DNA from: a virus
DNA: 39,824 nt
Reading direction: 5' to 3' (one strand)
Virus record (IMG/VR): IMGVR_UViG_3300017917_002679
Coordinates: 1-39,824 of that record
Numbering within the stretch: position 1 is the stretch's first letter; each line of letters opens with the position of its first letter. The notes beneath the pieces were generated by a model. The model saw nothing but the letters and a program-made list of their open reading frames with translations. It ran no database searches and was not told where the DNA came from. Shown piece by piece: positions 1-34,806 of this stretch. Made by a program: the position numbers and the translations under genes.

Positions 1-155
1 ATCTCTGCTCGACGTGTGCGACTGAGTTTGCGTATTTCACTCAACCATTTGCGTGACTGTATTTTGCTCTGACGGCTGGGTCTTTTGGCAAACTTTTCAT
101 TGTATTTGAAATAGTTCATGTAGGCTTTGGTCAACTGATCGTGTGTGTCGTCCAT
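1..155 (-). CDS. Small basic protein, 3' end outside window (partial)
   Basis: A reading frame starts at ATG 155 on the minus strand and stays open to the window edge (51 residues seen). A good ribosome site (AGGAG, 165-161) lies 5 bases before it and overlaps the stop codon of gp46, so the two are probably translationally coupled. The visible part has 14 Lys/Arg in 51 residues and no membrane segment or signal peptide. Small basic proteins beside gene 46 are found in other marine T4-like phages as far as I remember, some with histone-H1-like composition. Function is unknown; nucleic-acid binding is a guess from charge only. Confidence 0.65.
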   Translation of the reverse strand, partial: MDDTHDQLTKAYMNYFKYNEKFAKRPSRQSKIQSRKWLSEIRKLSRTRRAE

Positions 156-163
156 AAATGCTC

Positions 164-1942
164 CTAGATCTCATGCACTTCCACAGCATTGCTGTAGGAA
201 GTGAATCCATTCTCCTTGATCACTTTCAATGTGTTGTTCACCCTGCCCATCAATTCATCCTTGTGACTGATCAGATATATGCTCTTGCCTCGTTCCCTGC
301 TCATGCGTTTCAGTATGGCCAGGGATGATTCCACACCTGCTGTGTCCAGACCAGAATCTATCAATTCATCTATGAACAGCAGATTGATATCCTGATACAA
401 ACTCTCCCAGACATCGCGGAAAGCAAAGCTCAATCCCAATATCAATCTATTGCGTTCACCTCTGCTCAAATTATCAAAGTCCAAATCCTGTCCCAACATG
501 GTGATTTCCACGCTCAGATCGTTTTTGAACACCACAGTGTGTGGCAAGCCCAATGCTGTGAGATAATGAGTTAATCTGTTGTTTAAGAATGCCAAGTTTT
601 GATCTATGATCTTCTTTCTGATAAAACTGTCCTTGTTGGTCAACAGTTTCAATAAAAATTCTTGATGGTCTTTGAGTGTCTGCAAACGATTCACTTCGCT
701 CCAATCCAATTCTTGCAGTGCTTCTGTGCTCAATTCTGTGATTTGATCCACATAAGGATTCTGTTCTAATTCTTTGTTGTTCAATGTGGTCTTGTAGGTT
801 TCCAAATACTGTCTGTGTTCATAGGCTTCTTTGATTGTGTTGTAGAATGTTTCAGGACGCTGTGCTTGTGTGCCCAGCAATTTGATGGCTTCATCTATCA
901 CAGCAATTTCATCCACAATGCTCATGTTGTAATTCACAGCATCACCATATTCTTCTTCCAATTTGCGTTGTATTTCACAAAATTTATCTGTGTGCAATTC
1001 TTGACCACACGCATAACAAGTGGCTTTGTCATGCAAATTATCCAAGTCTTGACCTATTTTTTTAACTGTTTTGTCTGATTGCAACAGTGTCATTTCCAAA
1101 CTGCTCTTGTCTTTCTGCAATTGTTTTAATTCATTGCTGAATTTAGTCCATTCTTCCAACTGTTGATGTGCTTCCAACTCCTGTTCGATGTTCACTGATT
1201 CCAACTCTGTGATGGACTTTTTAAGTTTTTCAATATCCAAATTCTTTTGTGTGTTCCAAATTTTTTCTTTGTTGCTCAATGAATTGATGGTTTCTTTGAT
1301 CTTCTCGTTGCTCATTTTGATACCTTCCAAACGAGCATTCTCCATGGCCATGTCTTCTTTGCTGACTCTAATCTTGTCTTTGAGTAATTCTGCTTTCTCA
1401 CTCAGCAGTGTTATGCCCAACAATTGTTCAATGATGTCTTTTTGTTCATTGGCACTCATGCTTAAAAACGGTTCAGTGTAAGTGTTCAATGCCAATATGT
1501 GTTTGAACATGGAATGAGACAAGCCCAACATGTGATTGATAGCAGCCTGAGTCATACGACTGTCTCCTTGACTCTCGTCAGTGATTTCCTGTTCAGAGTC
1601 ATTGATAAAGTATCTCAAAGTGTTAGGGCGTCTTCCTCTTTCAATACGATATTTCACACCATCTTTTTCAAAAGTCAATGTGACCAACATGTTTTTGTTG
1701 TTGGTCTTGTTAACTAAATTTTCTCTGCGTATTTTTGTGAGTGCTTCACCAAACAAACCATAACTCAATGCATTGATCAGTGTGGTTTTACCAGTGCCGT
1801 TTCTGCTGCCAGCATCATCACCACCTTGATCCAAATTTTCTCCCAACACTAATGTGAGTCTTTGATTGTCAAAATCCACTCCCTGGGTCTGATTGCCCAC
1901 ACTCATGAAATTTTTAACTGTTAGATTCTTAATTTTTATCAT
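164..1942 (-). CDS. 46: gp46-like recombination endonuclease subunit (SbcC/Rad50 family ATPase)
   Basis: ATPase half of the phage Mre11/Rad50-type complex, which resects DNA ends for recombination-dependent replication and, in T4, host DNA breakdown. Visible features: Walker A ending NGTGKTT (residues 48-54), a long charged coiled-coil-like middle, a CxxC zinc hook (CYACGQ, Cys309 and Cys312), the ABC signature LSRGE (about 490), Walker B LLFIDE (about 517) and a D-loop SGLD soon after. At 592 residues it is close to T4 gp46 (560). The ATG at 1942 overlaps the gp47 stop in an ATGA, so it is translated after gp47 from the same message. All motifs look intact. The order 47 then 46 matches other T4-like phages. 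Confidence 0.95.
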   Translation of the reverse strand: MIKIKNLTVKNFMSVGNQTQGVDFDNQRLTLVLGENLDQGGDDAGSRNGTGKTTLINALSYGLFGEALTKIRRENLVNKTNNKNMLVTLTFEKDGVKYRIERGRRPNTLRYFINDSEQEITDESQGDSRMTQAAINHMLGLSHSMFKHILALNTYTEPFLSMSANEQKDIIEQLLGITLLSEKAELLKDKIRVSKEDMAMENARLEGIKMSNEKIKETINSLSNKEKIWNTQKNLDIEKLKKSITELESVNIEQELEAHQQLEEWTKFSNELKQLQKDKSSLEMTLLQSDKTVKKIGQDLDNLHDKATCYACGQELHTDKFCEIQRKLEEEYGDAVNYNMSIVDEIAVIDEAIKLLGTQAQRPETFYNTIKEAYEHRQYLETYKTTLNNKELEQNPYVDQITELSTEALQELDWSEVNRLQTLKDHQEFLLKLLTNKDSFIRKKIIDQNLAFLNNRLTHYLTALGLPHTVVFKNDLSVEITMLGQDLDFDNLSRGERNRLILGLSFAFRDVWESLYQDINLLFIDELIDSGLDTAGVESSLAILKRMSRERGKSIYLISHKDELMGRVNNTLKVIKENGFTSYSNAVEVHEI

Positions 1943-2946
1943 TGTAGATCTCTGTAAATTTCCAGCAGTGTGTTTTTGTTGTAACTGTCTGATTCTATGG
2001 CATTGATCTCTTTGCTGACTATTTCATCCACAGATTCAAAACGTGTGATATCCAATGTGCTGGTCATTTCATCATCTTTTTTGCCTGGAATCAACACAAT
2101 CTCTCTACAGTTATAATCTTTTATAAAAGTTTCTTTGATAAAACTGGCTTCTTCATAACTGATGTCTATGTCCAATGTGACTTGCAAATGCATTTTGGGT
2201 TTGATAATATTTTTGGCATCATTCAACAATTCGCTGAGATTAACTTTTAGATATCTAGGACAATTGTACCAATTGATATATCTAGGAGCACCTCCATGTT
2301 CCATGATCATCATACCTCGTTGATCATCATTCACATCAGCATAGTTGTGTGGCATGGGATTACCTATGTAATGTATGTTCTTTGCTGTTTGACGTTTGTG
2401 AAAATGTCCTGTGAACACATATTCTTGATTCACAAAGTCACCAGTCTGTATCAATCCAGTGTCTGGCATCTCTATCATGGCATTCATTAAGAAGTGTGGC
2501 AACTCAAAATGCCCAAACATGTATCTACTTTTGATTTTTTTAATTTGTTTGTATTCATCACCCACCAACCAAGGTACCAAAGTCACATCATCTATAGTGG
2601 TGGTTTCTGTGATCACAGTGATGCCTGGAATAAATCTAGCAAATTCTACCGAATGAATATCTCGTTTGTCTTTGTAATACAGATCGTGATTGCCAGGAAA
2701 GAAATAAAATTTTTCAAATGCTTTGCCCAGTTTTTCCAAACATTTGATAGAACTGTCCATGGTCATCAAATTCAATGAATTTCTGTTGTGATGCCAGTCA
2801 CCACAGAATATACCTGTTTCGCAATTGTTTTGTTTGGCTTGGTCTATGTACCAATCCACAAATTCTTCACAGTCTTGATTGTGTATCACACTGTTGCTTT
2901 TCAAACCAAAGTGTATGTCAGTGAACACTGCTGCTTTTTTAAACAT
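1939..2946 (-). CDS. 47: gp47-like recombination endonuclease subunit (SbcD/Mre11 family nuclease)
   Basis: Metal-dependent nuclease partner of gp46. Calcineurin-like phosphoesterase motifs appear in order: D10-I-H12, GDWHHN with D50, GNHD with N86 and H87, FGHFE with H146, and GHFH with H181 and H183. These are the expected two-metal ligands, so the enzyme looks active. Length 335 residues matches T4 gp47 (339). The start at 2946 is preceded by an AAGGAA ribosome site (minus 2960-2955, spacing 8) and a sigma70-type promoter. It shares an ATGA overlap with gp46. Known role of the family: end resection in phage recombination and replication. Confidence 0.95.
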   Translation of the reverse strand: MFKKAAVFTDIHFGLKSNSVIHNQDCEEFVDWYIDQAKQNNCETGIFCGDWHHNRNSLNLMTMDSSIKCLEKLGKAFEKFYFFPGNHDLYYKDKRDIHSVEFARFIPGITVITETTTIDDVTLVPWLVGDEYKQIKKIKSRYMFGHFELPHFLMNAMIEMPDTGLIQTGDFVNQEYVFTGHFHKRQTAKNIHYIGNPMPHNYADVNDDQRGMMIMEHGGAPRYINWYNCPRYLKVNLSELLNDAKNIIKPKMHLQVTLDIDISYEEASFIKETFIKDYNCREIVLIPGKKDDEMTSTLDITRFESVDEIVSKEINAIESDSYNKNTLLEIYRDLQ

Positions 2947-2969
2947 TCAAATTTTTCCTTCAAATTGAC

Positions 2970-2998
2970 ATTTTAAATTAAAAACCAAAATAAGTCAA
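2970..2998 (-). promoter_or_regulatory. Sigma70-type promoter for genes 47-46
   Basis: Read on the minus strand: TTGACT (2998-2993), a 17-base spacer, then TAAAAT (2975-2970). Each hexamer is one base off consensus and spacing is ideal. The predicted start near 2963 gives a leader of about 17 bases holding the gp47 ribosome site. It lies in the 56-base gap between gp55 and gp47. Confidence 0.75.
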
Positions 2999-3002
2999 TC
3001 TA

Positions 3003-3827
3003 TTAGGACTTCTTTTTAAACTCTCTGTCAATGGCTTTTTCATAAGCCTCTTTGTTTTGCCTAGTGAAGCTGGGCATCATATCGTTCATTTCCATAATAT
3101 CATCTCTGATATTTTGATTTCTTTTTTCAATATTGATGATTCTCACAAATGAATTGGTCACTGCTGCTGTGTAATAAGCAAATGGATTGTTGGACTTTGA
3201 TTCATCAAATTGCAATCCAATCTGTGTCAATTGCAGTATGGCTTGTCCTTGCATTTCATCATTGTAAGTGTAACCCCTCACATTGCCTCTGGTAGCATAA
3301 CGTTCACACAGTTTCATCCACATCATGGCCAACTTGGCAGTGGGTTTGCCACCTTCTTTGTTGAATTTGCCATTGTGCATGCCACCCTCCCAATGACTTT
3401 TGCCCACGCACACAAGATTGTCTTTGTCATCATACTTCCAATGTTGGAAAGCAGGAAAGTTTACTTTGATTTTTGAATCTGCTGGATTTTTAGGATTTTT
3501 TTTGCGTCCAGGTTCGCTGGGTATGTGATCATAGGTCATCACTCTAAACACCAGTTCATGTTTTTGTATTTTTTTATAATCCACTTCGCATTCAGACATT
3601 TTTACTTTGGGATTAGTCAGTTTGCGTTTTTCAAATTCTTCCACTGCAAGTCTTTTAGCTCTAACTCTTTTGGCTTCTGCTATGGTTCTTACATTTATTT
3701 TTTCCAAAGAAGATATGATCACATCATAACGATTGTATTCATCTTTGATATAACTGCAATAACTGTTTTTGGACTTATGGATTTCATCCAGTAGGTCTTT
3801 GTTGTTGAGATAGTTGATTTTTTTCAT
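3003..3827 (-). CDS. 55: gp55-like sigma factor for late transcription
   Basis: Divergent sigma factor that directs host RNA polymerase to late promoters (TATAAATA class in T4). Residues 165-245 carry the sigma region 2-like part: KLCERYATRGN, then DESKSNNPFAYYTAAVTN and SFVRIINIEKR, matching the gp55 family's SNNPFAYFT-type core. The protein has 274 residues against 185 in T4. The extra N-terminal part (about 1-160, with PGRKKNPKNPADSK and FQHWKYDD) agrees with my memory of cyanophage gp55 proteins, so it is a marine-branch feature rather than a fusion. Start 3827 has an AGGA ribosome site at spacing 5 and a consensus-like promoter. It lies divergent to the late baseplate genes it should activate. 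Confidence 0.9.
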   Translation of the reverse strand: MKKINYLNNKDLLDEIHKSKNSYCSYIKDEYNRYDVIISSLEKINVRTIAEAKRVRAKRLAVEEFEKRKLTNPKVKMSECEVDYKKIQKHELVFRVMTYDHIPSEPGRKKNPKNPADSKIKVNFPAFQHWKYDDKDNLVCVGKSHWEGGMHNGKFNKEGGKPTAKLAMMWMKLCERYATRGNVRGYTYNDEMQGQAILQLTQIGLQFDESKSNNPFAYYTAAVTNSFVRIINIEKRNQNIRDDIMEMNDMMPSFTRQNKEAYEKAIDREFKKKS

Positions 3828-3851
3828 GCAAATCCTATATAATTAGCCTTC

Positions 3852-3880
3852 AGTATAAACTACGCAGTTAATTTTGTCAA
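3852..3880 (-). promoter_or_regulatory. Sigma70-type promoter for gene 55
   Basis: Minus strand: TTGACA (3880-3875), 17-base spacer, TATACT (3857-3852). The -35 is perfect and the -10 is one base off. The expected start near 3845 leaves an 18-base leader with AGGA before the gp55 ATG. Its -35 element shares two base pairs with the late promoter of the opposite strand (3879-3886). Confidence 0.82.
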
Positions 3881-3886
3881 TAAATA
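3879..3886 (+). promoter_or_regulatory. T4-type late promoter (AATAAATA) for the baseplate operon
   Basis: AATAAATA differs from the T4 late consensus TATAAATA at one base. The predicted start near 3892 would give a short leader with AAAAGG (3893-3898), 6 bases before the gp48 ATG at 3905. It overlaps the divergent gp55 promoter. Confidence 0.75.
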
Positions 3887-3904
3887 CTTGAGAAAAGGTA
3901 GAAT

Positions 3905-4756
3905 ATGGCATCATTCGGAAACGACAGTATAGATCCAGCACAAGCAGTAAACAATTTCTTGGGCGGAGTGGGCAATACCACAGCTGATATAGCTGGCAAA
4001 GCGGCTGCTTCTGTGCAGGCTTTCACCAATCCTGCTAATCTTGTGTCAAATCTAAGATCTAGATTTTTACCAAAAGACGGCATGCCAGAATCCAAAACAC
4101 TCACTCAAGCCACCACAGCCACCAGACCAGGTGAAAAAGATTGGCGAGTAAAATTGAGTTTGCCATCAGATTTCAAAGGAGACATTATCAAACCATTGAT
4201 GGAAACAGGCGGACTATGTTTTCCTTATACACCGTCAATCATAGTGAACCACACAGCAAACTATTCACCTAGTAATCCTGTACACACCAATTACACAATT
4301 AATTCATACAATTACAGCACAGTGGATCAAATACAAATCAATGCTGATTTTTTTGTTCAGAATGCTTTGGAAGCCAGATACTGGGTAGCGGCTGTTCATT
4401 ATTTTAGATCAGTGACCAAAATGAAATATGGCGAATCCAGCAGTGGTGCAGGATCTCCTCCACCAGTGGTTTTATTGAATGGATACGGAGATTTTGTTTT
4501 CAAAAATGTTCCTGTGATTGTGACTCAATTTCAATTTGATATGCCAAATGATGTGGATTATATTTCTTGTTCTTTGGAAGAACCAGCAGCCTATGATGAT
4601 GCCTCAGTGTCTTATGGCACAACAGGATGGGCACCCACTCAAAGCATGTTGACAGTCTCACTACAACCTCAATTCGCAAGATCCACCATATCACAATTTA
4701 ACATGGATAGTTTTATCAAAGGTGAATATATTAGAAATTCTGGAGGATTTATTTAA
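3905..4756 (+). CDS. 48: gp48-like baseplate tail-tube cap protein
   Basis: 283 residues, first gene of the plus-strand late block. The N-terminus (1-60) is Ala/Gly-rich and low in complexity. The core (about 75-280) has the pattern of T4 gp48/gp54-type tube-initiator proteins: a segment on particle coordinates (ALEARYWVAAVHYFRSVTKM), a PPPV turn, then VFKNVPVIVTQFQFDMPNDV and a closing beta segment (SMLTVSLQPQFARSTISQF). Tube-like proteins share this pre-C-terminal pattern. The assignment to gp48 rather than gp54 rests on position before gp53 and on how marine phages are usually annotated. The stop overlaps the next start as TAATG. Confidence 0.65.
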   Translation: MASFGNDSIDPAQAVNNFLGGVGNTTADIAGKAAASVQAFTNPANLVSNLRSRFLPKDGMPESKTLTQATTATRPGEKDWRVKLSLPSDFKGDIIKPLMETGGLCFPYTPSIIVNHTANYSPSNPVHTNYTINSYNYSTVDQIQINADFFVQNALEARYWVAAVHYFRSVTKMKYGESSSGAGSPPPVVLLNGYGDFVFKNVPVIVTQFQFDMPNDVDYISCSLEEPAAYDDASVSYGTTGWAPTQSMLTVSLQPQFARSTISQFNMDSFIKGEYIRNSGGFI

Positions 4757-5058
4757 TGGCCACATACAATAGTTTAAGCCCATGGCACAACACAGAGACT
4801 GTCAATGATCAGTATTTGGGATTATTGAATATCAGACCTGTGCCAGAAACCAGTGATGATATTTTGTACACTGTGGGAGTGCAATACACTCACAGACCAG
4901 ATCTGTTGGCCTATGATCTGTATGGTACCACCAAACTTTGGTGGGTGTTTTCACAAAGAAATCCAGACAGATTGAAAGATCCCATCTACGATTTAGTGGC
5001 TGATTTAAAAATTTATCTACCTCAAGGACCCAAATTAAGATCACTACTGGGATTGTAA
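4756..5058 (+). CDS. 53: gp53-like baseplate wedge protein
   Basis: 100 residues; T4 gp53 has 196, so this is the short marine form. The diagnostic stretch is residues 44-90: YTHRPDLLAYDLYGTTKLWW, then VFSQRNPDRLKDPIYDL and a closing KIYLP, typical of the wedge protein 53 family. In that family the YD.YG...WW..F..RNPD pattern folds like a LysM module. It closes the baseplate wedge ring around the hub. It starts in a TAATG with the previous gene and ends one base before the next ATG, so it is translated in a coupled row. Confidence 0.82.
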   Translation: MATYNSLSPWHNTETVNDQYLGLLNIRPVPETSDDILYTVGVQYTHRPDLLAYDLYGTTKLWWVFSQRNPDRLKDPIYDLVADLKIYLPQGPKLRSLLGL

Positions 5059-5059
5059 A

Positions 5060-7309
5060 ATGTCCATCAATAAAAATTCTGACAATATCACAGTACAATT
5101 CAAAGATGCTGGCGGTAGAGCTATCAAAGATTTTAACGGAAAAAAAGTTGTCTACAAAGAGGAAAGAGATGATGATGGTGGTGTGCGTTATGTCACCACA
5201 GAAGTTGGTCCTAATATTAAAAAAAATGAACTTCATAAATTCAGCAGTTTTAACACAATTTTTACTCTAGCCTGCTTGACCATAGATGAAATCAATAATC
5301 CTTATAATTTAAGAATTAAAACTCCAAACAAAGTGATACTGAGAAATGGAGGATCCAGCAAAAGTAAATTTGTTACTCAGTATGATAGACCATTGGAAGG
5401 AGGATCAGCTGCAGCCAGAGAATTTTTTATTTCAGATGTGGAAATACAAACAGTGGTAGCACCCAATCCAAAAACCAAACACACCAATGCTTACAAAATA
5501 AATTTCACAGTGGTAGAACCCTACAGTTTAGGCACATTTATTGAAACACTCAGAAGTGTGGCAGCAGCAAGTGGTCATAAAAATCACACAGTTGCTCCTT
5601 ATTGTTTGACATTGGAGTTCAAAGGATACGATCAATCAGGCAAAGAATACTCAGTGGAACAGACCAAACGTGTGATTCCCATGAAAATTATTCAAATTGA
5701 ATTTGAAGCCAATCAATCAGGCAGTATCTACAATTGTCAAGCCACAGGTTGGAGCGAACAAGCATTGGATGGAGCAATTCAAACAGTTCAAACAGAAATC
5801 AAAATAAAAGGCAAAACTGTGCAGGAAATGTTGCAGGTAAGTCTACAAGAGCAACTGAATCAGATTAAGAAAAAAAGAAACAAAGAAGAAGAATTGGTAA
5901 AACATCAAATAGATGATTATATCATAAATTTTCCCACGAAAGAAGCTCTACAAAGTAGAAAAAACAATATTACCACAAGCAGTGATCAAGACAACAAAGG
6001 CAAAATGACTGCGGATGAACAGCGTAAAGCATTGGTTGGAACCAACACAGTGGTCAAATCAGATGCCAATGGTATTTCTTACAAACAGACCAATGATTCT
6101 CTAAACGAAATAGGAAAATTTAAAATTTTAGTGAATGAGTCACAAATCAAAGACATGACCGATAAACTTGTGTATGATTCAAAGAAAAAGATTGAAATCA
6201 CATCTCAAGTGGCCAAAGAATTGAAATCGTACACATTAAATTTCAAAGCAGGAACTAATATTGAAAACATGATCACCAATGTGATAATTTTCAGTGAATA
6301 TGCTGCCAAGTCATTGAAAGATAGCAGTGGAAAAAGCGAGATAGACTGGTTCAAGATTGTGACTAGGACATTCATCATTCAAGACGAAGAAATATTAAAA
6401 AAATATGGAAGATATCCTTACCTATATGTGTACGATGTGATCCAATATCCAGTGCATGAATCAGTGTTTGCCAAGCCAAACACTAAGACTGACGTGGCAA
6501 ATTTTGAAACTCAGTTGGTAAAAGAGTACGATTATTACTACACAGGAAAAAACACGGACATATTGGATTTTCAATTGAAATACAACATGGCTTTCCTCAC
6601 AGTGCTGCCCGCAGATGCTGCTAAATCTAAAAGCAGAGAAGATGACAAAACCAGAGCTGAAAAAGATGGAACTAATTCTTTGGATGAGCAATCTGGTGAC
6701 ACAGCGGATTCAAACACTGGTTCAGGCACAACTATCACAGGAGTGGTGCGAAGACAATTCAATCAGTATGAAGTGATAGATGGATTGTCAGACGAACAAA
6801 GATTGGCGTTGGAATTCAATGAAGCTGTTATCAACAGCAACGCAGATCTGGTACAAATCAATCTCTCCATACTGGGAGATCCGTATTATATTGCTGACAG
6901 TGGCTCAGGCAATTATTATGCCAATGTGACTGAAGATCCCACAGGCAAACCATCCAAATTTGTGAACAAAGACGGCGCTATGGAAGGCACATTTTCAGGA
7001 GTTTACATTGCCATTAATTTTAGAACTCCTATTGATTACAACAGCAATGGACAAATAATGATGAGAGACACAGCATCACAAGCAGAAAGATTTATACCAG
7101 TGCCAGCATTCAGTGGCATATACAGAGTGAACATGGTCACACATACTTTTCAAGGTGGACTATTCAAACAAGAATTGCAGTGCAACAGATTGGCCAATCA
7201 AGAAGTTAAGAAAAAACCAGAAAAAAACAACAAATCAATCTTACCTGGTGATGGTAAAACATTTAATACTGATTCGGGGAATGAAAGTACAGGAGGTAGT
7301 GGAGCATAA
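5060..7309 (+). CDS. Baseplate hub-type structural protein (gp27-like position)
   Basis: 749 residues with no signal peptide or membrane segment. Residues 1-250 read as beta-rich (ISDVEIQTVVAPNPKTKHTN, then NFTVVEPYSLGTFIETLRSV); about 255-290 is a charged helix (LQEQLNQIKKKRNKEEELVK); the region near residues 535-565 is rich in Ser, Asp and Thr; and the last 30 residues are polar (KKPEKNNKSILPGDGK). The conserved final domain contains FSGVYIAINFRTPIDYN and FSGIYRVNMVTHTFQGGLFK, which resembles hub proteins that sit on a gp5-type spike. Its place between gp53 and gp5 is where a gp27-like hub is expected; T4 gp27 is only 391 residues. I infer a hub role from position and the C-terminal pattern, not from a firm motif. 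Confidence 0.6.
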   Translation: MSINKNSDNITVQFKDAGGRAIKDFNGKKVVYKEERDDDGGVRYVTTEVGPNIKKNELHKFSSFNTIFTLACLTIDEINNPYNLRIKTPNKVILRNGGSSKSKFVTQYDRPLEGGSAAAREFFISDVEIQTVVAPNPKTKHTNAYKINFTVVEPYSLGTFIETLRSVAAASGHKNHTVAPYCLTLEFKGYDQSGKEYSVEQTKRVIPMKIIQIEFEANQSGSIYNCQATGWSEQALDGAIQTVQTEIKIKGKTVQEMLQVSLQEQLNQIKKKRNKEEELVKHQIDDYIINFPTKEALQSRKNNITTSSDQDNKGKMTADEQRKALVGTNTVVKSDANGISYKQTNDSLNEIGKFKILVNESQIKDMTDKLVYDSKKKIEITSQVAKELKSYTLNFKAGTNIENMITNVIIFSEYAAKSLKDSSGKSEIDWFKIVTRTFIIQDEEILKKYGRYPYLYVYDVIQYPVHESVFAKPNTKTDVANFETQLVKEYDYYYTGKNTDILDFQLKYNMAFLTVLPADAAKSKSREDDKTRAEKDGTNSLDEQSGDTADSNTGSGTTITGVVRRQFNQYEVIDGLSDEQRLALEFNEAVINSNADLVQINLSILGDPYYIADSGSGNYYANVTEDPTGKPSKFVNKDGAMEGTFSGVYIAINFRTPIDYNSNGQIMMRDTASQAERFIPVPAFSGIYRVNMVTHTFQGGLFKQELQCNRLANQEVKKKPEKNNKSILPGDGKTFNTDSGNESTGGSGA

Positions 7310-8811
7310 TGTTTAGAGGTATACAAAGAAGAGACAATAACAGAGACCAGGTGGTCAAAGATCCCGGCCCATATGAAGCCATAGTGACCAGTCATTTGGA
7401 TGCCAAATATTCTGGATCTTTGGAAGTGGAATTGCTGAAAGCAGGTGTGAGTGGCAATGATCCTTTTGAACCAGGACAAAGAGTGCTGGTAAAATATTGC
7501 AATCCTTTTTATGGAATCACTTCTTACAATGGTGTCACTCCCAATCACAACTATGAAGACAGTCAACAGAGCTACGGCATGTGGTTTGTGCCACCAGACA
7601 TTGGAGTCAAAGTATTGGTGATATTTGTGGAAGGCAATATCAACAAAGGCTATTGGTTCGGTTGTGTGCAGGCAGAAAATCAAAACTTTATGTTGCCAGA
7701 TGGCAGAGCTGCCACCACCTATACTGACGTGAATGATGATATATCGTTGAGAGGTAAAAAATTGCCAGTGGGAGAATACAATAAAAAATTAATTGACAAC
7801 ACAAGAAATCTCACAGACACAACAAAATTTTTAAAACCCATCAACCAACAGTTTGTGGACATATTAAACAATCAAGGATTGCTGGAAGACGAAACTAGAG
7901 GCTTGACCACATCAAGTGCCAGACGAGAAGTGCCCAGCAGTGTGTTTGGAATCAGCACTCCAGGACCTTTGGACAAACGTGGCAATTCGCGTGGCAAAGG
8001 TGGCAGATATTATTCTAGATTGGGCGGCAGCAGCATTGTGATGGATGATGGTGATGATAAATTTTTGCGTAAAACATCAGCAGCCACAGGACCTTCAGAA
8101 TATGTGAATCAATTCACAGATGAACAAGAAACAGCAGATGAAACCATACCTCATAATGAACTAGTGCGTATCAGAACCAGAACTGGTCATCAAATACTGT
8201 TGCACAATTCAGAAGATTTGATCTACATTGGCAATGCCAAAGGAACCACATGGGTAGAATTAACAGCCAATGGAAAAATAGATGTGTATGCCAAAGACAG
8301 TATCAGTTTTCACACAGAAACGGATTTTAATTTCAAAGCAGATAGAGATGTGAATATAGAAGCAGGACGCAGTGTGAATATCAAAGCATCAAATAATGTG
8401 CAAATAGAAAGCAATCAAAATTTAAATTTAGTGATAGGTGCCGATGGTTTTATAACCACAGGTTCTAATTTAAATATAAACAGTGCCAACAATTATTTCA
8501 CAGCCACCAGTGAAACACACATTAAAAGTGATATTCAATACAGCTCAGGATCAGAAGCATATTCAAATTTTCCAACAGGCGGAACAGCTGACGCTACTGC
8601 TGCAGGCAGTGCTTCTATTTTAAGCACATTTACTAATCCTGGAGAAAATTCAGAAAACATAATGAAACGTGTGCCACAACATGAACCTTGGTCACAGCAT
8701 GAAAATTTAAATCCTACTAATGTCAGTGATAATTTAACAGATAGAGAAAATCCCAACAATATTAACAATTCATCTTTAACGCAGATAAAGGATACTTTTA
8801 CAAAAAATTAA
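7309..8811 (+). CDS. 5: gp5-like baseplate hub/spike protein without lysozyme domain
   Basis: Central spike of the baseplate. Residues about 15-130 form the gp5/VgrG OB-fold (GPYEAIVTSHLDAKYSGSLE, then VRVLVKY-like, WFVPPDIGVKVLVIFVEGN and GYWFGCVQ). The middle (150-270) is a polar linker. Residues 280-420 form a VgrG/gp5C-type triple-stranded beta-helix: RTRTGHQILLHNSEDLIYIG, then short repeats such as DVNIEAGRSVNIKASNNVQI. T4 gp5 carries a lysozyme domain between OB-fold and helix; no lysozyme-like Glu/Asp/Thr motif is seen here. Start overlaps the previous stop (TAATG). At 500 residues it is shorter than T4 gp5 (575), consistent with loss or absence of that domain. Confidence 0.85.
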   Translation: MFRGIQRRDNNRDQVVKDPGPYEAIVTSHLDAKYSGSLEVELLKAGVSGNDPFEPGQRVLVKYCNPFYGITSYNGVTPNHNYEDSQQSYGMWFVPPDIGVKVLVIFVEGNINKGYWFGCVQAENQNFMLPDGRAATTYTDVNDDISLRGKKLPVGEYNKKLIDNTRNLTDTTKFLKPINQQFVDILNNQGLLEDETRGLTTSSARREVPSSVFGISTPGPLDKRGNSRGKGGRYYSRLGGSSIVMDDGDDKFLRKTSAATGPSEYVNQFTDEQETADETIPHNELVRIRTRTGHQILLHNSEDLIYIGNAKGTTWVELTANGKIDVYAKDSISFHTETDFNFKADRDVNIEAGRSVNIKASNNVQIESNQNLNLVIGADGFITTGSNLNINSANNYFTATSETHIKSDIQYSSGSEAYSNFPTGGTADATAAGSASILSTFTNPGENSENIMKRVPQHEPWSQHENLNPTNVSDNLTDRENPNNINNSSLTQIKDTFTKN

Positions 8812-8813
8812 CG

Positions 8814-8821
8814 AATAAATA
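8814..8821 (+). promoter_or_regulatory. Candidate late promoter (AATAAATA) abutting the gene 25 start
   Basis: AATAAATA lies in the 15-base gap between gene 5 and gene 25. With T4-type spacing the start would fall near 8827, which is the A of the gene 25 ATG. Either it makes a leaderless message or the motif is coincidental. Confidence 0.5.
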
Positions 8822-8826
8822 TTCAT

Positions 8827-9273
8827 ATGAGCACACAAGAAAAAAAATTATACAAAGACATAGTGGTTAAATCCAAAAAAACCTTCACTGATCCAGTGGG
8901 ACCAAGAGCCTACAGAGGTATCAGCACTGTGAATCCCGATGTGAACAGTTTCAACCTATATGATATTGCACTGATCAAACAGGATCTATTGAATCATTTT
9001 CATATCCGTCAGGGAGAAAAATTGGAAAATCCTCAGTTTGGCACTATTATTTGGGACGCACTGTTCGAACCACTCACAGAGGACATGAAACAAGCCATCA
9101 TACAAAATGTCACTGAAATTGTCAACTATGACCCCAGAGTGCAGGTGAACGCTGTGACTGTGGACACTTACGAAAGCGGCATACAAATAGAATGTGATCT
9201 TACCTATCTTCCCTACAATATTTCTGAAAATTTGCGTTTAAAATTTGATGAAAACAACGGTTTAATCAATTAG
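8827..9273 (+). CDS. 25: gp25-like baseplate wedge protein
   Basis: 148 residues of the gp25/GPW family (T4 gp25: 132). The family core is visible: FNLYDIALIKQDLLNHFHIR, then GEKLENPQFGTIIWDALFEP, then VNYDPRVQVNAVTV and a C-terminal beta segment. gp25 sits at the inner ring of the wedge and helps start sheath assembly. The N-terminus (1-40) is a basic extension. No Shine-Dalgarno sequence precedes the ATG (CGAATAAATATTCAT), and no later in-frame ATG would keep the fold, so 8827 is the best start although its initiation looks unusual. Confidence 0.93.
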   Translation: MSTQEKKLYKDIVVKSKKTFTDPVGPRAYRGISTVNPDVNSFNLYDIALIKQDLLNHFHIRQGEKLENPQFGTIIWDALFEPLTEDMKQAIIQNVTEIVNYDPRVQVNAVTVDTYESGIQIECDLTYLPYNISENLRLKFDENNGLIN

Positions 9274-9299
9274 AATTAACTGAGCATTTAATCAAACCT

Positions 9300-9307
9300 A
9301 ATAAATA
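9300..9307 (+). promoter_or_regulatory. T4-type late promoter (AATAAATA) for genes 6 and downstream
   Basis: AATAAATA, preceded by T, in the 54-base gap after gene 25. Predicted start near 9313, leader about 15 bases. Only a weak GGAA ribosome site (9320-9323) precedes the ATG at 9328. Confidence 0.7.
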
Positions 9308-9327
9308 AGTCTATACAATGGAAACTT

Positions 9328-12300
9328 ATGTCATCCACAGATAGATTAAACAGATTATTGCTGGCAGAGGACTGGAAAAAAGTCTATCAGAGTTTTAGAA
9401 ACGCTGATTTCAAAAGCTACGATTTTGACAATCTACGCAGATCTATGATCAATTATCTGCGACAAAATTATCCTGAAGATTTCAATGATTATTTGGAGAG
9501 CAGTGAATATCTTGCCCTAATTGATTTGATTGCTTTCTTGGGACAAAACATTGCTTTTAGAATTGATTTGAATGCCAGAGAGAATTTTATAGAATTAGCA
9601 GAGAGAAGAGAATCTGTACTGCGTCTTGCTAGACTGCTGAGTTACAACGCCAAAAGAAATCAGTGTGCCAATGGATTGTTAAAAGTGGATGCTATCAGCA
9701 CCACAGAAGAAATTATAGACAGCAACAATATTAATCTTGCCAATCAAACTATCATATGGAATGATCCCAGCAATGAAGATTGGTATGAACAGTTTGTCAA
9801 AGTATTGAACGCAGTGCTGCCTGTCACAGCCAAAGTGGGCAGACCCAATAAGACAGACACAGTGAACGGCATCCCCACAGAGTTGTATCAATTCAATTCC
9901 AATCTGCAAGAAGTGCCAGTATTCACTTTTTCCAAAAACATAGATGGCAGAAACACTGTGTTCGAAATAGTGAGCGTGGACATGAACGATGGAGAATTGT
10001 CAGAATTATCTCCGCTGCCCACCAACAAACTTCAATTTGTCTACAAAGAAGACGGCAGAGGCAATGCCAGCAGCAACACTGGATTCTTTTTTCATTTTAG
10101 ACAAGGCACATTGCAGCAAGGAGATTTCACCGTGGATTTATCAGTGCCCAATCAGGTGGTGGGAGTGGATGCCACCAACATCAATCAGTCAGACGTTTGG
10201 TTGTATCAATTGGACACCAACAGTAATGAAACAGAATTATGGACCAAAGTGAGTGCCACTGAAGGCAACAATGTGATCTACAATAGCACTGCTAAATCTA
10301 TTAGAAATATCTACAGTGTGATCACCAGAACCGAAGACAGAATCAATTTGCAATTTGCTGATGGAACATTTGGTAATTTACCCAAAGGTGCTTTTAGAAT
10401 TTATTACAGAACCAGCGACAATAGACAATTTAAAATTGTGCCTGCTGACATGACCAACATTCAGATTGCCATTCCGTACGTGAGTGCTAGCGGCAAAGAT
10501 GAAACATTGACTATTAGTTTAGGATTACAGTATACCATAGACAATGCCACCAATTCTGAATCAAATGATTCTATCAAAACCAATGCGCCTTCCACTTATT
10601 ACACACAGAACAGAATGATCACAGGAGAAGATTACAATGTGGCTCCGCTGGCTGTGAATCAAGAGATTATTAAAATTAAATCAGTCAATAGAATCAGCAG
10701 TGGAATATCTAGATATTTTGATCTGTTGGATGCCACAGGCAAATACAGCAGCACAAATCTTTACGGTAACGATGGTATAATTTACAAAGAAACCATCAAC
10801 AACGGTATCACTTTCAGTTATGTGAGTAGAACTGATATTGAAGGCATTATCAACAATTCAATTGAACCATTGTTGAGTGATAAAAAATTATTTAATTTTT
10901 ATTTGGATAATTTTGCTGAGATAATCATCACAGATATTGTGGCTTCTTGGAATCAGTCCACAGCCAACAGCAATATTTCTACAGGTTATCTCACAGACGA
11001 TGACGCAAACAAATTAGAAGTGGGATCTTTCACAGAAAGTGTGTTAAAATATTTAGAAATTGGAGCACAGTGTAAATTTGTTGCTCCAACCGGAAAATAT
11101 TTCACAGCGGATGGTGAATTAGCCACAGGCACTCCTTCAGAATTGGGAGACAGCACTGTGCGATGGACCACTGTGGTGAATGTGATCGACAATGGCACAC
11201 TGATACAAAATGATGATTCAGGACCTATCATATTCAATGATATCATACCCACAGATGCCATATTGACACAGATTGTGCCTAAATTTACAAAATTTTTATC
11301 ATCAGATACCAAATTGGAAATGTTGGATCAAATATTTGCCAACAGTACATTTGGATTGAGATATGATGTGAGCACTAGAGATTGGGCTGTGATTGATGAG
11401 AACAATCTAAATGTGTACAGTGATTTCAGCATGGGTAAAACAGGTGATATCAGCAATCAACAATTGGATGCCAGCTGGCTATTGCTGTTTACCACTGACA
11501 CAGAATTGTACACTGTGACCTACAGAGGTGTAAGATATGTGTTTGAAAGTGACAAAGAAATAAGATTCTATTACGACAGCAGCGATAAAAATTACAACAC
11601 CAACACTGGTAAAATAATCAAAGACAAAATCACAGTGTTAAACATTAATTCTGCTCCGGGAGTATTGACACCATTGCTGGATAATATTGCATGGCAAGTG
11701 GTGGCAGAATACAGAGATGCTCAAGGCTATGTGGACAGTAAAAAAATAGAAATCACATATTTTGATTCAGATGATGATGGATTGATGGATAATCCTGAAT
11801 CTTTTGAAAATTTAGTTGAATTAAACAATTACATATATCAAAAAAAGATTATCACCAACGGAGTAGAAGATTTTAATTACGTGGATGCCAGCAGCGAAAA
11901 TATAGTGGAAATCAACAGTGAAAATCAAATTGGATCTTACAGTTCATACGATTCTGACACTGTGTTTTACAACACCAGCACAGACGTGTTTAAATTGTTG
12001 GATGTGTCTCAAGGCACTTTGAGTGTGGTGGGAGATTACAAAGCATTTATTGGTCGTGACGGATTAAAATTTCAATATGTACACAGCACTGACAATTCTA
12101 ATAGAATAGATCCCAGCTCCAGCAACATAATTGATTTATTCTTATTGACCAGATCTTATGATACTGAATTTAGATCTTGGTTGGATGGTGACGTTGAAGA
12201 TAAACCGTTGCCCATGAGTTCTGATGCCATGTATCAAAACTTTGGCAAAGATATCAATTTGATCAAATCCATCAGTGATGAAGTGATCTATCATCCAGTC

Positions 12301-12744
12301 AAATACAAAATATTATTTGGCGACAAAGCAGATGCTAAATTTCAAGCTGTATTCAAGGTGGTAAAAAATTCCAATGAAGTTGTGAGTGACGATGATGTTA
12401 AAGTGAGAGTGATTCAAGCAGTGAATGAATATTTTGATCTAGAAAATTGGGATTTTGGAGATACTTTTTATTTTTCTGAACTCAGCACTTATGTGATGAC
12501 ACAATTGGCTCCAGACATAGTGACATTTGTGATAGTGCCAGATCAAACATCACAATCATTCGGCAGTCTGTTTGAAATCAAATCTGAAAGTGATGAAATT
12601 TTTATTAGTGGTGCCACAGTGGATGATGTTGAAATAATCGATGCCATCACTGCTTCAAAATTAAAATCTACAGGATCAGTGGTCACTTCCACACCAAACA
12701 CTAATGTAGGTATTAACAGTGCTTCTTCCAACGGGAGTATCTAA
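9328..12744 (+). CDS. 6: gp6-like baseplate wedge protein (enlarged)
   Basis: 1138 residues against 660 in T4. Residues 13-112 are the clear gp6 N-terminus (LAEDWKKVYQSFRNADFKSY, ... SEYLALIDLIAFLGQNIAFR, ... ENFIELAERRESVLRLARLL). A baseplate J-like part follows (about 420-540, with YNVAPLAVNQEIIKIKSVNR). The C-terminus (about 990-1110) has WDFGDTFYFSELSTYVMTQL and DEIFISGATVDDVEI, matching marine gp6 proteins as I remember them. Between them sits a large beta-rich insertion with an acidic DSDDDGLMDNP loop (about residue 812) of the calcium-binding DxDxDG type. Two gp6 chains hold each wedge together in T4. The gene ends in a TAATG with the giant gene. Confidence 0.9.
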   Translation: MSSTDRLNRLLLAEDWKKVYQSFRNADFKSYDFDNLRRSMINYLRQNYPEDFNDYLESSEYLALIDLIAFLGQNIAFRIDLNARENFIELAERRESVLRLARLLSYNAKRNQCANGLLKVDAISTTEEIIDSNNINLANQTIIWNDPSNEDWYEQFVKVLNAVLPVTAKVGRPNKTDTVNGIPTELYQFNSNLQEVPVFTFSKNIDGRNTVFEIVSVDMNDGELSELSPLPTNKLQFVYKEDGRGNASSNTGFFFHFRQGTLQQGDFTVDLSVPNQVVGVDATNINQSDVWLYQLDTNSNETELWTKVSATEGNNVIYNSTAKSIRNIYSVITRTEDRINLQFADGTFGNLPKGAFRIYYRTSDNRQFKIVPADMTNIQIAIPYVSASGKDETLTISLGLQYTIDNATNSESNDSIKTNAPSTYYTQNRMITGEDYNVAPLAVNQEIIKIKSVNRISSGISRYFDLLDATGKYSSTNLYGNDGIIYKETINNGITFSYVSRTDIEGIINNSIEPLLSDKKLFNFYLDNFAEIIITDIVASWNQSTANSNISTGYLTDDDANKLEVGSFTESVLKYLEIGAQCKFVAPTGKYFTADGELATGTPSELGDSTVRWTTVVNVIDNGTLIQNDDSGPIIFNDIIPTDAILTQIVPKFTKFLSSDTKLEMLDQIFANSTFGLRYDVSTRDWAVIDENNLNVYSDFSMGKTGDISNQQLDASWLLLFTTDTELYTVTYRGVRYVFESDKEIRFYYDSSDKNYNTNTGKIIKDKITVLNINSAPGVLTPLLDNIAWQVVAEYRDAQGYVDSKKIEITYFDSDDDGLMDNPESFENLVELNNYIYQKKIITNGVEDFNYVDASSENIVEINSENQIGSYSSYDSDTVFYNTSTDVFKLLDVSQGTLSVVGDYKAFIGRDGLKFQYVHSTDNSNRIDPSSSNIIDLFLLTRSYDTEFRSWLDGDVEDKPLPMSSDAMYQNFGKDINLIKSISDEVIYHPVKYKILFGDKADAKFQAVFKVVKNSNEVVSDDDVKVRVIQAVNEYFDLENWDFGDTFYFSELSTYVMTQLAPDIVTFVIVPDQTSQSFGSLFEIKSESDEIFISGATVDDVEIIDAITASKLKSTGSVVTSTPNTNVGINSASSNGSI

Positions 12745-15700
12745 TGGCTTACGATAATAATCAAGAAGATTTTCCATTACCAGCAGGGAAACAAAACGAA
12801 ACTGAAAGAAAAACTTCTAATTTATTGCCAAGATATTTTAGAACACCCACCAACTCAAAATTTTTATACAGCACACTGGATCAATTACTGAATCCAGGCA
12901 CAGTGGAAAAAATCAGTGCTTTCTATGGTAGGAAAACAGCCAAAGCATTCACAGCCACAGACAATTACATCAATGAAGTGACCAGTGACAGACAAAATTA
13001 TCAATTGGAACCTGTGGTGGTTAGAAAAGACAATCTCAACAATATTGTGTTTTACAAAGACTATGTGGATTACATCAATCAAATTAAAAGTTTGGGTGGC
13101 AATGTGGACAATCACAGTGCTCTAAATGCTCAAGAATATTACAGTTGGAATCCTAATATTGATTGGGACAAGTTTGTAAATTTTAGAGAATACTACTGGT
13201 TAACCTATGGCCCTGAAGTAATCACTATCACTGGACCACAACAGCAAGTACAAAGCACTTACACAGTGCGATTGGCTGATAACTTGGACAATTATGCTTA
13301 TGTGTTGTCACCAGATGGACTCACTCAAAACTCCACCATTAAATTGTACAAAGGAGTCACTTATAAATTTGAAATTAACACTCCTGGCATGCCGTTCTCC
13401 ATCAGAACTGCTAGAGTATTATCAGATGACTATTTGTTCAATGAAGGAGTGGATCAGCAGAATGTAGAGCAAGGCACAATCACATTCACAGTGGGTATCA
13501 ATACACCTGACACTTTATATTATGTTTCTTCAAATGATATCAATGCTTATGGGTTGATACAAATAGCTTTACTGGAAGAAAACAGTCAAATAGATGTGGA
13601 AAAAGACATCATTGGCAAAAAGAATTTCACACTGAACAACGGAATTGCACTTTCCAATGGAATGAAAATTAATTTCAAAGGTAACGTAATTCCAGAAAAA
13701 TACGCTCAAAATGAATGGTATGTGGAAGGTGTGGGAGAATCAATAACATTAATCAATGAACAAGATTTTAGATTACCTAATGATATTGCTGATGAAACTT
13801 TAGAAGCTTTTGATGAAGAAGGATTTGATAAAAACACCTATGACATAGAAGATGTCACAGCTGATGTTAAAGATTATATTGTGATCAAAAAAAGTTCATT
13901 GGACAAAAACCCATGGACCAGAGCCAACAAATGGGTACACAAATCAGTGTTGCAAGCTGTGGCAGATTACAACAATGTCACATTGGAAGTGGATGAAAAT
14001 TTAAGAGCCAAAAGACCCATTATTGAATTTGATGCTGGATTAAAATTATTTAAATTCGGAACCGTGGCCAAACCTTATGTGGATGTGGTAGACACATTTA
14101 CCAAAGATGTATTCAGCGACATAGAAGGCGCCACAGGCTACAATGTGGATGGTGTGGATCTAGTGGATGGCATGAGAATATTAGTGACTGCTGACACAGA
14201 CATATTGGTAAAAAATAGAATATTCACAGTTAAAATTATTAATTTTGGTGGTGACGGAGATCCCACCAACAAACAAATTTCTTTGATAGAGCCAGCAGAT
14301 TCACTTCCATTACTGAATGAAGTGGTATTGGTTGCCAGCGGTGCCGTAAATCAAGGCAAAATGTTTTATTACAACGGTGATTCTTGGAAAGAAGCACAAG
14401 CTAAAACTTCAGCAAATCAAACTCCATTGTTTGACGTGTTTGACGATGAAGGTGATAGTTTTTCAGATTCTGTAAAATACCTCAGCACAAATTTTTTAGG
14501 CAATAAAATTTTTAGTTACCGTATAGGATCTGGCACTGCTGATTCAGAATTAGGATTTCCTTTGTCTTATAGAAATGTAAACAATGTGGGAGACATAGTA
14601 TTTGATTTCAATTTACTTTCAGAGTCTTTCAGTTATCAATCAGAAGACAGCGTTGTGAATCAATCCACTGACGTGGGTTTTCTTAAACAATACACTGATA
14701 GAACTACCTACAAAAATGTTCATGGTTGGACCAAAGCTAAAAATTTCAGCAAACAAATGGTTGTTAGACAATACCTTGGCACAGAACAAACCAATGATTT
14801 TGCTGTGGATGTGTATGATCGCAGTGGTTCACTGAGTGATTTAATTTTAAAAGTTTATGTGAACAACAAATTGTTGAATTCTCAAGAATATGAAACAGTC
14901 AGCATCAATAATATTTTATATGTGAGACTTGATACAGATCTCAACAGTGATCAGAGCATAATACTAAAAACACACAGCAGTGCGATAAAAAACGCAAATG
15001 GCTATTATGAAATACCCATTAATTTAGAAAGCAATCCATTGAATGATAATCTTAATGATTTCACTTTTGGAGAAGTGGTAAATCATGTGGACAGCATCAT
15101 TGAACAATTGGAAACTTTCCAAGGAGCCAATCCTGGATCCAACAATCTAAGAGATTTAGGTAATTTAACTGCTTATGGAACAAAATTTGTTCAGCACAGT
15201 GCTCCAATCAACTTATCTCTGTATCATGTGACTGAAAAACAAGTGAATGTGATCAAATCTGTGGCTTTTGCTCAAAAAGAATACGACAAATTCAAAAAAA
15301 CTTTTTTACAAGTGGCTGAAAAATCAGGATTTGATGGCACAGTGCGTGAACATGTGGATGAAATAATGAAGATCATCAACAAAGACAAAAACAGTAATAT
15401 GCCTTTTTATTTCAGCGACATGGTGCCATATGGAGCTGCTAAAAAATTAACATTCACTGTGTTTGATGACAGCAACATTTATTTTGCTCTTACTCAATCA
15501 TTCAGTATGACTCAATTGAGTACCAAAGCAGTACAGGTGTATCTAAACGGTGAGCAATTGGATTATCAAACAGATTATGAATTCAACACAGATAATTTCT
15601 GTGTGATTAAAACAGGGTTGGCTGTGAATGATCTGGTTGAAATATATGAATATGAGAGTACCAACGGCAATTATGTACCGCCCACACCTACCAAATTAGG

Positions 15701-27434: not shown

Positions 27435-27437
27435 ATA
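27430..27437 (+). promoter_or_regulatory. T4-type late promoter (AATAAATA) overlapping the giant gene's stop
   Basis: AATAAATA contains the TAA stop of the giant gene (27432-27434). The expected start near 27443 gives a 17-base leader with AAAAGGA (27446-27452), 7 bases before the next ATG. This is the best formed late promoter plus ribosome site of the set. Confidence 0.75.
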
Positions 27438-32300: not shown

Positions 32301-32308
32301 GATAAATA
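32301..32308 (+). promoter_or_regulatory. T4-type late promoter (GATAAATA) for fibre C
   Basis: GATAAATA begins directly after the fibre B stop. The expected start near 32314 leaves a 15-base leader with AAGAGGA (32316-32322), 6 bases before the ATG at 32329. Confidence 0.72.
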
Positions 32309-33809: not shown

Positions 33810-33817
33810 ACTAAATA
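33810..33817 (+). promoter_or_regulatory. Candidate late promoter (ACTAAATA) next to a gene start
   Basis: ACTAAATA differs from TATAAATA at two bases. The expected start near 33823 lies 3 bases before the ATG at 33826, and no ribosome site fits between, as for gene 25. Confidence 0.45.
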
Positions 33818-34749: not shown

Positions 34750-34767
34750 ATCTAAATAATCTAAATA
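34750..34767 (+). promoter_or_regulatory. Tandem ATCTAAATA ATCTAAATA, possible doubled late promoter
   Basis: Two perfect 9-base copies of ATCTAAATA stand in tandem in the 101-base gap before the glycosyltransferase operon. Each contains TCTAAATA, similar to ACTAAATA at 33810. They would give late transcription of the operon. The gap shows no terminator hairpin. Confidence 0.45.
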
Positions 34768-34777
34768 GCTGTAACAG

Positions 34778-34806
34778 TTGACTTTCTGGTGCAAACCATG
34801 TATAAT
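34778..34806 (+). promoter_or_regulatory. Sigma70 promoter of the glycosyltransferase/radical SAM operon
   Basis: TTGACT (34778-34783), a 17-base spacer and TATAAT (34801-34806), eleven of twelve consensus bases. Expected start near 34813; GGAGGA (34815-34820) follows, 9 bases before the ATG at 34830. Its layout matches the promoters of genes 55 and 47. Confidence 0.85.

Follow-up and report, generated by a model that had tools for sequence, protein, structure and literature searches.

In the virus record IMGVR_UViG_3300017917_002679, analysed over its whole length of 39,824 bp (the window), the gene of a gp55-like late sigma factor on the minus strand is separated by an intergenic region of 77 bp from a virion operon on the plus strand, and the early promoter of the former and the late promoter of the latter are packed back to back within this gap. 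Such packing at gp55 is real and widely conserved among T4-like giant phages, a large group of which has it, and is not a product of chance. In the reading that we favour with moderate confidence, the two promoters form a composite control site, in which a sigma70 early promoter of gp55 and a gp55-dependent late promoter of opposite direction are interleaved, and through which gp55 would switch the site and cap its own supply.

Architecture of the site and of its flanking genes

The elements of the site, the genes on its two sides, and the late boxes located elsewhere in the window are as follows.

3003-3827, minus strand: gene of the gp55-like late sigma factor, 274 aa (phrog_12791, E 6.8e-75; phrog_234, E 3.6e-21)
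3852-3857, minus strand: -10 hexamer TATACT of the gp55 early promoter (predicted start ~3845)
3858-3874, minus strand: conserved 17-bp spacer AAATTAACTGCGTAGTT of the gp55 early promoter, from the conservation of the spacer columns
3861-3872, plus strand: candidate late-promoter upstream element TACGCAGTTAAT, inside the early spacer, starting 20 bp before the TAAATA core
3875-3880, minus strand: -35 hexamer TTGACA of the gp55 early promoter, from the sequence and a sigma70 pattern scan
3879-3886, plus strand: late box AATAAATA of the virion operon (predicted start ~3892)
3905-4756, plus strand: first gene of the virion operon, virion structural protein (phrog_12050)
8814-8821, plus strand: late box AATAAATA before the gp25-like gene (8827)
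9284-9307, plus strand: late promoter of the baseplate wedge gene at 9328, with AATAAATA at 9300-9307
27430-27437, plus strand: late box AATAAATA before the gene at 27460
32301-32308, plus strand: late box GATAAATA before the gene at 32329
33810-33817, plus strand: late box ACTAAATA before the gene at 33826

The positions and the letters that the first-pass annotation had given for both promoters proved correct. The sigma70-type promoter, TTGACA-17-TATACT (minus strand, 3880-3852), agrees with the consensus at 11 of 12 positions and is one of two sites of this quality in positions 1-20000 of the window; its start was predicted as the +1 position seven bases past the -10 hexamer. The late box ends 18 bp upstream of the start codon at 3905, and the late start was predicted by placing the box at -13 to -6, as described for T4 in the accessible part of the source (PMC1524935). 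The overlap of the -35 hexamer with the late promoter, as proposed earlier, holds for 2 bp of the 8-mer, namely its two 5' A's (3879-3880), and does not extend to the late core TAAATA (3881-3886), which abuts the -35 hexamer without overlapping it. The predicted starts, 3845 on the minus strand and 3892 on the plus strand, lie 47 bp apart and direct transcription away from each other, so that two polymerases should not fit together; the geometry thus agrees with the earlier statement that a polymerase on one promoter covers the other.

Two further candidates in this region were discarded. A plus-strand sigma70-like site, TTGATT-18-TATAAT (3814-3843), directed toward the virion operon, was set aside as a chance occurrence because close relatives mostly lack its -10 element, with, for example, ACATAGG or ACAAAGG instead of ATATAGG (minus strand) at this place. 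A palindromic operator in AGTTGACAAAATTAACT / AACTGCGTAGTT, judged by eye, was dropped since the letters of its arms vary, either C or G being found at the same spot.

The assignment of the minus-strand gene to gp55 was borne out by the profile match to phrog_12791 listed above and by searches with both the sequence and a structure model of its product. T4 gp55 is the only PDB sequence matched at E up to 1 (phmmer, 7d7c_F, E 2.1e-5, residues 146-236). The model, built from 54 relatives (mean pLDDT 84.7), has T4 gp55 as its top match in Foldseek (E 7.3e-3, probability 1.00, 88 columns), a search that returned nothing at E 0.001 or better, and again in VIA-align (7d7c_F, Z 11.4, 123 residues aligned, rmsd 3.6), where the next rows, mostly sigma factors, have Z of 9.5 and below. 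Homology to T4 gp55 in sigma region 2 is found in the sequence as well as in the model. The extra residues of the 274-aa protein lie, in the model, between the first helix (9-21) and the sigma2 helices, and since the aligned range starts at residue 6, they would represent an insert relative to T4 rather than a simple tail. Relative to T4 gp55, the protein of the window, as modelled, appears to carry an insert of ~120 residues between its own first helix and the sigma2 core, and such an insert is present in 13 jumbo-clade gp55 proteins that were aligned. Downstream of the gp55-like gene, on the same strand, follow SbcD/gp47-like and then SbcC/gp46-like genes, which are gp47 and gp46 in annotated relatives.

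The facing operon does encode virion proteins, as had been stated: the phrog_12050 gene is followed by genes of gp53-like, structural, hub/lysozyme-like, gp25-like, and baseplate wedge proteins, in this order. The bare word AATAAATA occurs in the window at chance level (4 found, 3.61 expected), and all four copies are on the plus strand, just ahead of plus-strand genes. Of the 21 TAAATA words in the window, 8 lie in gaps, against 0.7 expected, and in eight contigs including the window, for which crude ORF calls were used, 161 of 448 do so, against ~20 expected, an enrichment in gaps of ~8-fold. Both the 8-bp box, which is TATAAATA-like, and its placement before virion genes on the same strand correspond to a T4-type late promoter, a type that gp55-polymerase transcribes with gp33 and gp45.

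Two other features of the window are worth recording. Positions 12744-27434 form a single ORF of 4,896 codons, spanning 14.7 kb of the virion region. At 34751-34806, two TCTAAATA late boxes are found 10-20 bp upstream of a strong sigma70-like site (TTGACT-17-TATAAT) on the same strand, so that late and early promoters stand in tandem ahead of the gene at 34830; one TCTAAATA box and the TTGACT promoter are kept in all five relatives compared (L245-L249).

Conservation and rearrangement among relatives

The best 80 gp55 relatives in IMG/VR were selected on the protein alone, and 77 of them have a readable upstream region (L029, L030, and L078 were left out as truncated), which makes 78 sequences with the window. 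In all 78, of which 47 are distinct, TATTTA, the late core as read on the strand of gp55, is located 6 or 7 bp before the -35 hexamer, that is, with a gap of 0 or 1 bp, a position that a randomly placed 6-mer would take ~2.5% of the time. The spacer between the two hexamers is 17 bp long in 78 of 78, with 16-18 allowed. Comparison with close relatives was the test that the first-pass annotation had set for itself, and the overlap is present throughout.

The whole IMG/VR collection was also scanned with a pattern that names the sigma70 part only and leaves the late box free. Among the matches listed, at least 114 sites fall in newly fetched loci, and TATTTA is at the same spot in 114 of 114; among these matches, therefore, no sigma70 half lacked the late box. 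The gp55 gene lies downstream in 107 of the 114 listed sites; six further sites are followed by no more than 89 nt of contig, and in the last one (L206) the first gp55 residues are followed by another ORF, so that, among the matches listed, the sigma70 half was not seen away from gp55 where enough sequence remains. The gp55 N terminus of L206 (KVNYLNR), which lies on the minus strand beyond the composite, leads directly into an ORF that is, judged by eye, GIY-YIG endonuclease-like, an arrangement as for a homing element in gp55. A different departure is seen in L159 (3107-4969), where the gp55 reading frame is 620 aa long and departs from the other gp55 proteins after ~43 residues; a Pfam search with this frame gave no match. 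In a blastn search of phage records with the 68-nt site, weak partial matches only were obtained, in Listeria, Lactococcus, Yersinia, and Proteus phages.

A late box is not a general feature of early promoters in these genomes. The eight contigs contain 22 strong sigma70-like sites in gaps, eight of which have TATTTA within 15 bp upstream, and these eight are the gp55 promoters, one per contig. The word was found at this distance in none of the 14 other strong gap sites and in none of the 19 sigma70-like sites in coding sequence of the same contigs.

A wider sample was compiled from two further protein-profile scans, one genome scan, 12 cultured phages, the best 80 relatives, and the window. 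The 256 loci yielded 252 usable ones (L029, L030, L078, and L401 left out) and 193 distinct regions selected by gp55, or 188 when the members of five pairs with an identical 80-nt stretch are counted once, and these were sorted by simple patterns into classes A, B, C, E, O, and N. Class A, with the late box 0 or 1 bp from the -35 hexamer, comprises 99 of the 193 regions (94 of 188 after merging), including L281, which is class B-like by eye. The gap is 0 in 46 of them and 1 in 53, the -35 hexamer is TTGACA or TTGACT in 92, and the -10 hexamer is TATANT in 93. In class B (20 regions) the late box is in the place of the -35 hexamer, 17 bp from TATTAT, and in class C it falls within the spacer, 7 bp from a -10-like word (seven regions, one of which, Phosso (L083), is there by a chance pattern, its sigma70 site being 73 bp away); overlap is thus kept in different registers. 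Class E (21 regions) is characterized by back-to-back late boxes, one of them directed into gp55, with the sigma70 promoter displaced downstream. In class O (45 regions) TATTTA is present and the sigma70 promoter is elsewhere or unclear, and class N, without TATTTA within 200 nt, has a single member, leaving 192 of the 193 regions with this word, some perhaps by chance.

The share of class A varies with gp55 identity to the window, from 60 of 71 regions at 70% or more to 35 of 69 at 60-70%, 4 of 35 at 50-60%, and 0 of 18 below. On a gp55 tree (FastTree, long branches) the six classes require 12 changes, and overlap (A, B, or C) versus none requires six. The gap between the two genes is short, with a median of 81 bp in the 148 of 193 regions measured. 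In the 77 of 99 class A regions that were anchored, the distance from the late box to the virion start varies from 10 to 41 and that from the -10 hexamer to the gp55 start from 16 to 56, while the inner gap of 0 or 1 bp is given by the class definition.

In class E, the sequence TATTTA-ACCAN-TAAATAAACTGC (as in L265; L264 has ACTAC) lines up with the class A spacer, and the two boxes are arranged as TATTTA-4 to 7 nt-TAAATA (examples are L264, L265, L270, L341, and L359). Judged from these alignments, class E gives the impression that the early promoter was converted into a late one directed into gp55 and that a new sigma70 promoter arose downstream. In another set of regions (L250-L252, L350, L357, L367, L373, L399, and L408) a late box is accompanied in most cases by a TAGGCGCACTTAAT-like stretch, and no recognisable sigma70 promoter for gp55 was found. 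Class O relatives are also present on three MAG contigs (Porticoccaceae, Betaproteobacteria, and Pelagibacter bins).

In all 12 cultured phages gp55 faces a gene cluster of the opposite strand. The first facing gene is annotated as a nucleotidyltransferase in Phosso and Atu_ph07; annotations of the facing genes are hypothetical only in pEa_SNUABM_19, SCTP-2, and Phosso, and in part in others. Six RaK2-like jumbo phages with gp55 identity of 37-40% (121Q, XaC1, CBB, pEa_SNUABM_19, Munch, and RaK2) have a distance of 3-7 bp between the late box and the best -35-like element. Among distant relatives there are several in which the two are 14-73 bp apart: 14 bp in Vibrio 2.275 (a weak site), 23 or 29 bp in both PA5oct and MIJ3, where two sites are tied, 25 bp in Atu_ph07, and 73 bp in Phosso, and in SCTP-2 the distance is 12 or 30 bp, depending on the site chosen. 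An IMG/VR query with the gp55 of Atu_ph07 returned only Atu_ph07 itself. The smaller T4-like phages HTVC008M, Melnitz, S-TIM4, and RHph_I1_18 have no virion operon facing gp55, which lies there behind genes of its own strand; in Melnitz, one short hypothetical ORF of the other strand overlaps the gp55 start.

The conserved spacer and a candidate upstream element of the late promoter

Conservation of the spacer, which the first-pass annotation had not described, was found in this analysis. Over the 99 class A regions, chosen by gp55 protein, the 17 spacer columns have a mean of 1.26 bits, compared to 0.27 for the flank, and the mean is 1.18 bits when each distinct spacer (65) is counted once. 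The corresponding values for L106-L219 (1.48 bits, and 17 bp in 114 of 114) are biased, these loci having been partly chosen by the spacer itself, and were not used. At another early promoter of these phages (window 34778), the spacer of the window differs from those of relatives L245-L249, which show little or no variation from one to the next.

On the strand of the virion operon, the conserved sequence corresponds to TACGCAsTTAAT, ~20 bp before TAAATA, with GCA-N2-TAAT located 17-18 bp before TAAATA. Anchoring on the late box was achieved for 163 of the 193 regions, the other 30, including Atu_ph07 and Phosso, being not automatically anchorable on the virion start. The best AAATTAASTGCGTA match is at an offset of 5-7 in all 91 anchored regions that score at least 10 of 14. 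Anchored regions without TTGAC near the box number 77, and 20 of them still score at least 10 of 14 (L409, L394, L340, and L337, for example), some of these 20 having TTGCAT as the -35 element. Below 50% gp55 identity, the motif reached a score of 10 in none of the 14 anchored regions, the mean being 7.86 compared to 7.97 in shuffles. The unanchored Atu_ph07 carries TATTTAGTTGACAAATTAACTA, with no -10 element in register.

Traces of the same motif are found at other late boxes. TACNCA occurs 21 times at the 161 gap late boxes, 12 times at 20 or 21 bp (five of these are gp55 sites), and 13 times at the 287 coding TAAATA sites, with no peak at 20 or 21 bp. When the gp55 sites are excluded, TAAT is found at 13 bp in 12 of 134 gap boxes versus 1 of 287 coding sites (p 7e-6), and GCA at 18 bp in 10 of 134 versus 1 of 287 (p 7e-5), p values that come from ~300 tests tried and from related contigs that are not independent. 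A logo of late boxes in general has only a weak signal upstream, and a PWM scan of the eight contigs for the spacer motif returned the gp55 sites and a few weaker matches. Since several of the matches represent the same promoter in related contigs, the independent promoters with an upstream element are few, namely those of the baseplate wedge gene, the PLQKYFRQP operon, the MLQKLD gene, and the operon facing gp55. At the baseplate wedge gene, which we take to be gp6-like, the element is present in four contigs in addition to the window, where GCATTTAAT at 9284-9292 is an upstream element of the same kind as at the late promoter facing gp55. The PLQKYFRQP operon is named after its first protein, which holds this sequence or the like and is presumably hub-like. 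In joined contigs (G004:81348-, G003:71618+, G006:73791-, and G011:7377+), a second divergent pair with a late box and the same upstream element was observed, in which the gene of a 711-737 aa protein is opposed to that of a PLQKYFRQP-type protein of 287-301 aa.

In the accessible parts of two reports on T4 (PMC2988020, PMC7892883), late promoters are described as having no upstream or -35 element, with unconserved upstream DNA, in contrast to the late promoter facing gp55 here, the upstream DNA of which is conserved. We infer from these comparisons that late promoters of this clade probably include an upstream element, strongest at the gp55-facing operon. Given that the motif is found again at some of the late promoters elsewhere, an extended late promoter may here enclose the early one.

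A proposed switch, its alternatives, and known systems

A complex of polymerase with sigma70 covers roughly -55 to +20. In gp55 open complexes, according to the accessible part of PMC7892883, DNA is melted from -12 to +2 and the upstream DNA is oriented as in sigma70 complexes. With these footprints, only one complex should sit on 3825-3912, and the early and late promoters, by their geometry and the known polymerase footprints, should be mutually exclusive. Early on, host sigma70-polymerase would use the gp55 promoter and, while bound, would cover the late box, keeping the virion operon closed. As gp55 accumulates, gp55-polymerase would open the late promoter and cover the early -35 hexamer and the spacer, and the site would pass from the production of gp55, with the gp47- and gp46-like genes behind it, to that of virion parts. 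With the fall of early transcription gp55 would cap its own early supply. We infer that occupancy is high enough for occlusion to matter and to limit gp55.

The first-pass annotation had viewed the site as a possible negative-feedback switch, in which the product of gp55 could shut its early promoter while opening the virion genes. Its premises concerning gene identity, the virion operon, the geometry, and the close relatives are all retained, whereas simple and universal negative feedback is not, since it is contradicted by class E (21 of 193) and by the late boxes placed 14-73 bp from the -35 element in distant relatives. Negative feedback on gp55 is plausible, though not universal, and the late box directed into gp55 in the 21 class E regions would, from its orientation, provide positive feedback. 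We can speculate further, as a tentative extension, that the late promoter is bipartite (TAAATA with GCA-N2-TAAT, absent in T4) and contains the early promoter, that gp55 represses itself by occlusion, and that a second late promoter flips the feedback to positive in some lineages.

Other explanations of the same arrangement have to be weighed against the composite site. Two independent promoters could simply have been packed into a short gap, their overlap being inherited and unable to drift, and occlusion could be without regulatory consequence, given the many copies of phage DNA late in infection and the other mechanisms that shut off sigma70 transcription; we regard this as unlikely, yet as deserving serious consideration. 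With a median gap of 81 bp, back-to-back footprints would often overlap anyway, and the overlap has been lost or loosened in many distant relatives. Nor is the rigid spacing independent proof of coupling, since selection on the overlapped promoters themselves freezes it by construction once they overlap. Independent packing is harder to reconcile with overlap in several registers (A, B, C, and the RaK2 type with 3-7 bp) and with the finding that none of the 14 other strong sigma70-like gap sites of the eight contigs overlaps a late box.

Rather improbable, in our view, is an operator in the spacer at which a separate DNA-binding protein, of phage or host, represses early and activates late transcription, like p4 of phi29, the overlap being only its place of action. 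The contrast between spacer and flank (1.26 versus 0.27 bits), the persistence of the motif, with unchanged distance to the late box, in 20 of the 77 regions without TTGAC near the box, and the similar stretch in Atu_ph07 are all compatible with such an operator, but the late-strand motif recurs at the same distance before some other late promoters, and this favours a promoter element over a dedicated operator. Finally, TATTTA is AT-rich and on the right side of the -35 hexamer for an UP-like enhancer of the early promoter, in which case no late promoter would exist here. This we consider very improbable, given that the word is missing from the 14 other strong gap promoters, that the same plus-strand box stands ahead of several other virion genes in the window, that TAAATA is ~8-fold enriched in gaps, and that TATTTA persists within 200 nt in 192 of 193 regions, some of them maybe with chance words, even where the -35 element has moved.

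The composite control site remains the reading that we prefer, and it bears on how late transcription is timed. The early-to-late handover of T4-like phages, and the limits on their late sigma factor, are mostly explained by trans-acting factors. Competition between the late sigma gene and its target operon for the same DNA, within a conserved site of 35 bp, would shift the handover into cis. The different registers found across relatives are natural variants in which occlusion can be tested. A genuine upstream late element would mean that jumbo T4-like phages recognise their late promoters differently from T4.

A TATAAATA-type box ahead of virion genes is common to T4 and the window, as is a gp55-like sigma factor. 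Boxes with A at the first position are reported from other T4-like phages, and CTAAATA from Aeh1, in the accessible part of PMC1524935. A promoter before the gp55 gene (Porf_244) has been predicted in CBB, as has ATAAATA in 35 places before structural genes (PMC5259590, accessible part). CBB and the RaK2-like phages resemble the window in the divergent placement of gp55 and structural genes and in the short distance, 3-7 bp, between the late box and the best -35-like element, and differ from it in having a -35 element of another type, TGAAACG-like; the accessible part of that report (PMC5259590) does not mention promoter overlap. Overlapping divergent promoters also serve as a switch on plasmid pLS20, which, as far as the accessible text of PMC4207663 goes, involves DNA looping and the control of conjugation, and apparently no sigma-factor circuit. 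In the accessible portion of the open-licence literature, no report of overlapping gp55 and late promoters was recognised. The early and late promoters of phi29 are divergent, and divergent overlapping early and late promoters are also what the geometry of the present site indicates. In phi29, phage proteins turn the late promoter A3 on and the early promoters A2b and A2c off, according to the accessible part of PMC3100819. In both cases, early and late promoters are confined to one short region, and in phi29, as is proposed here, one event activates the late and represses the early direction, with the difference that separate regulators, p4 with p6, act in phi29, whereas here the sigma factor produced from the early promoter itself would do so. 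The kind of arrangement, overlapping divergent early and late promoters, is already known, and what would be new is a sigma factor in the place of a separate regulator.
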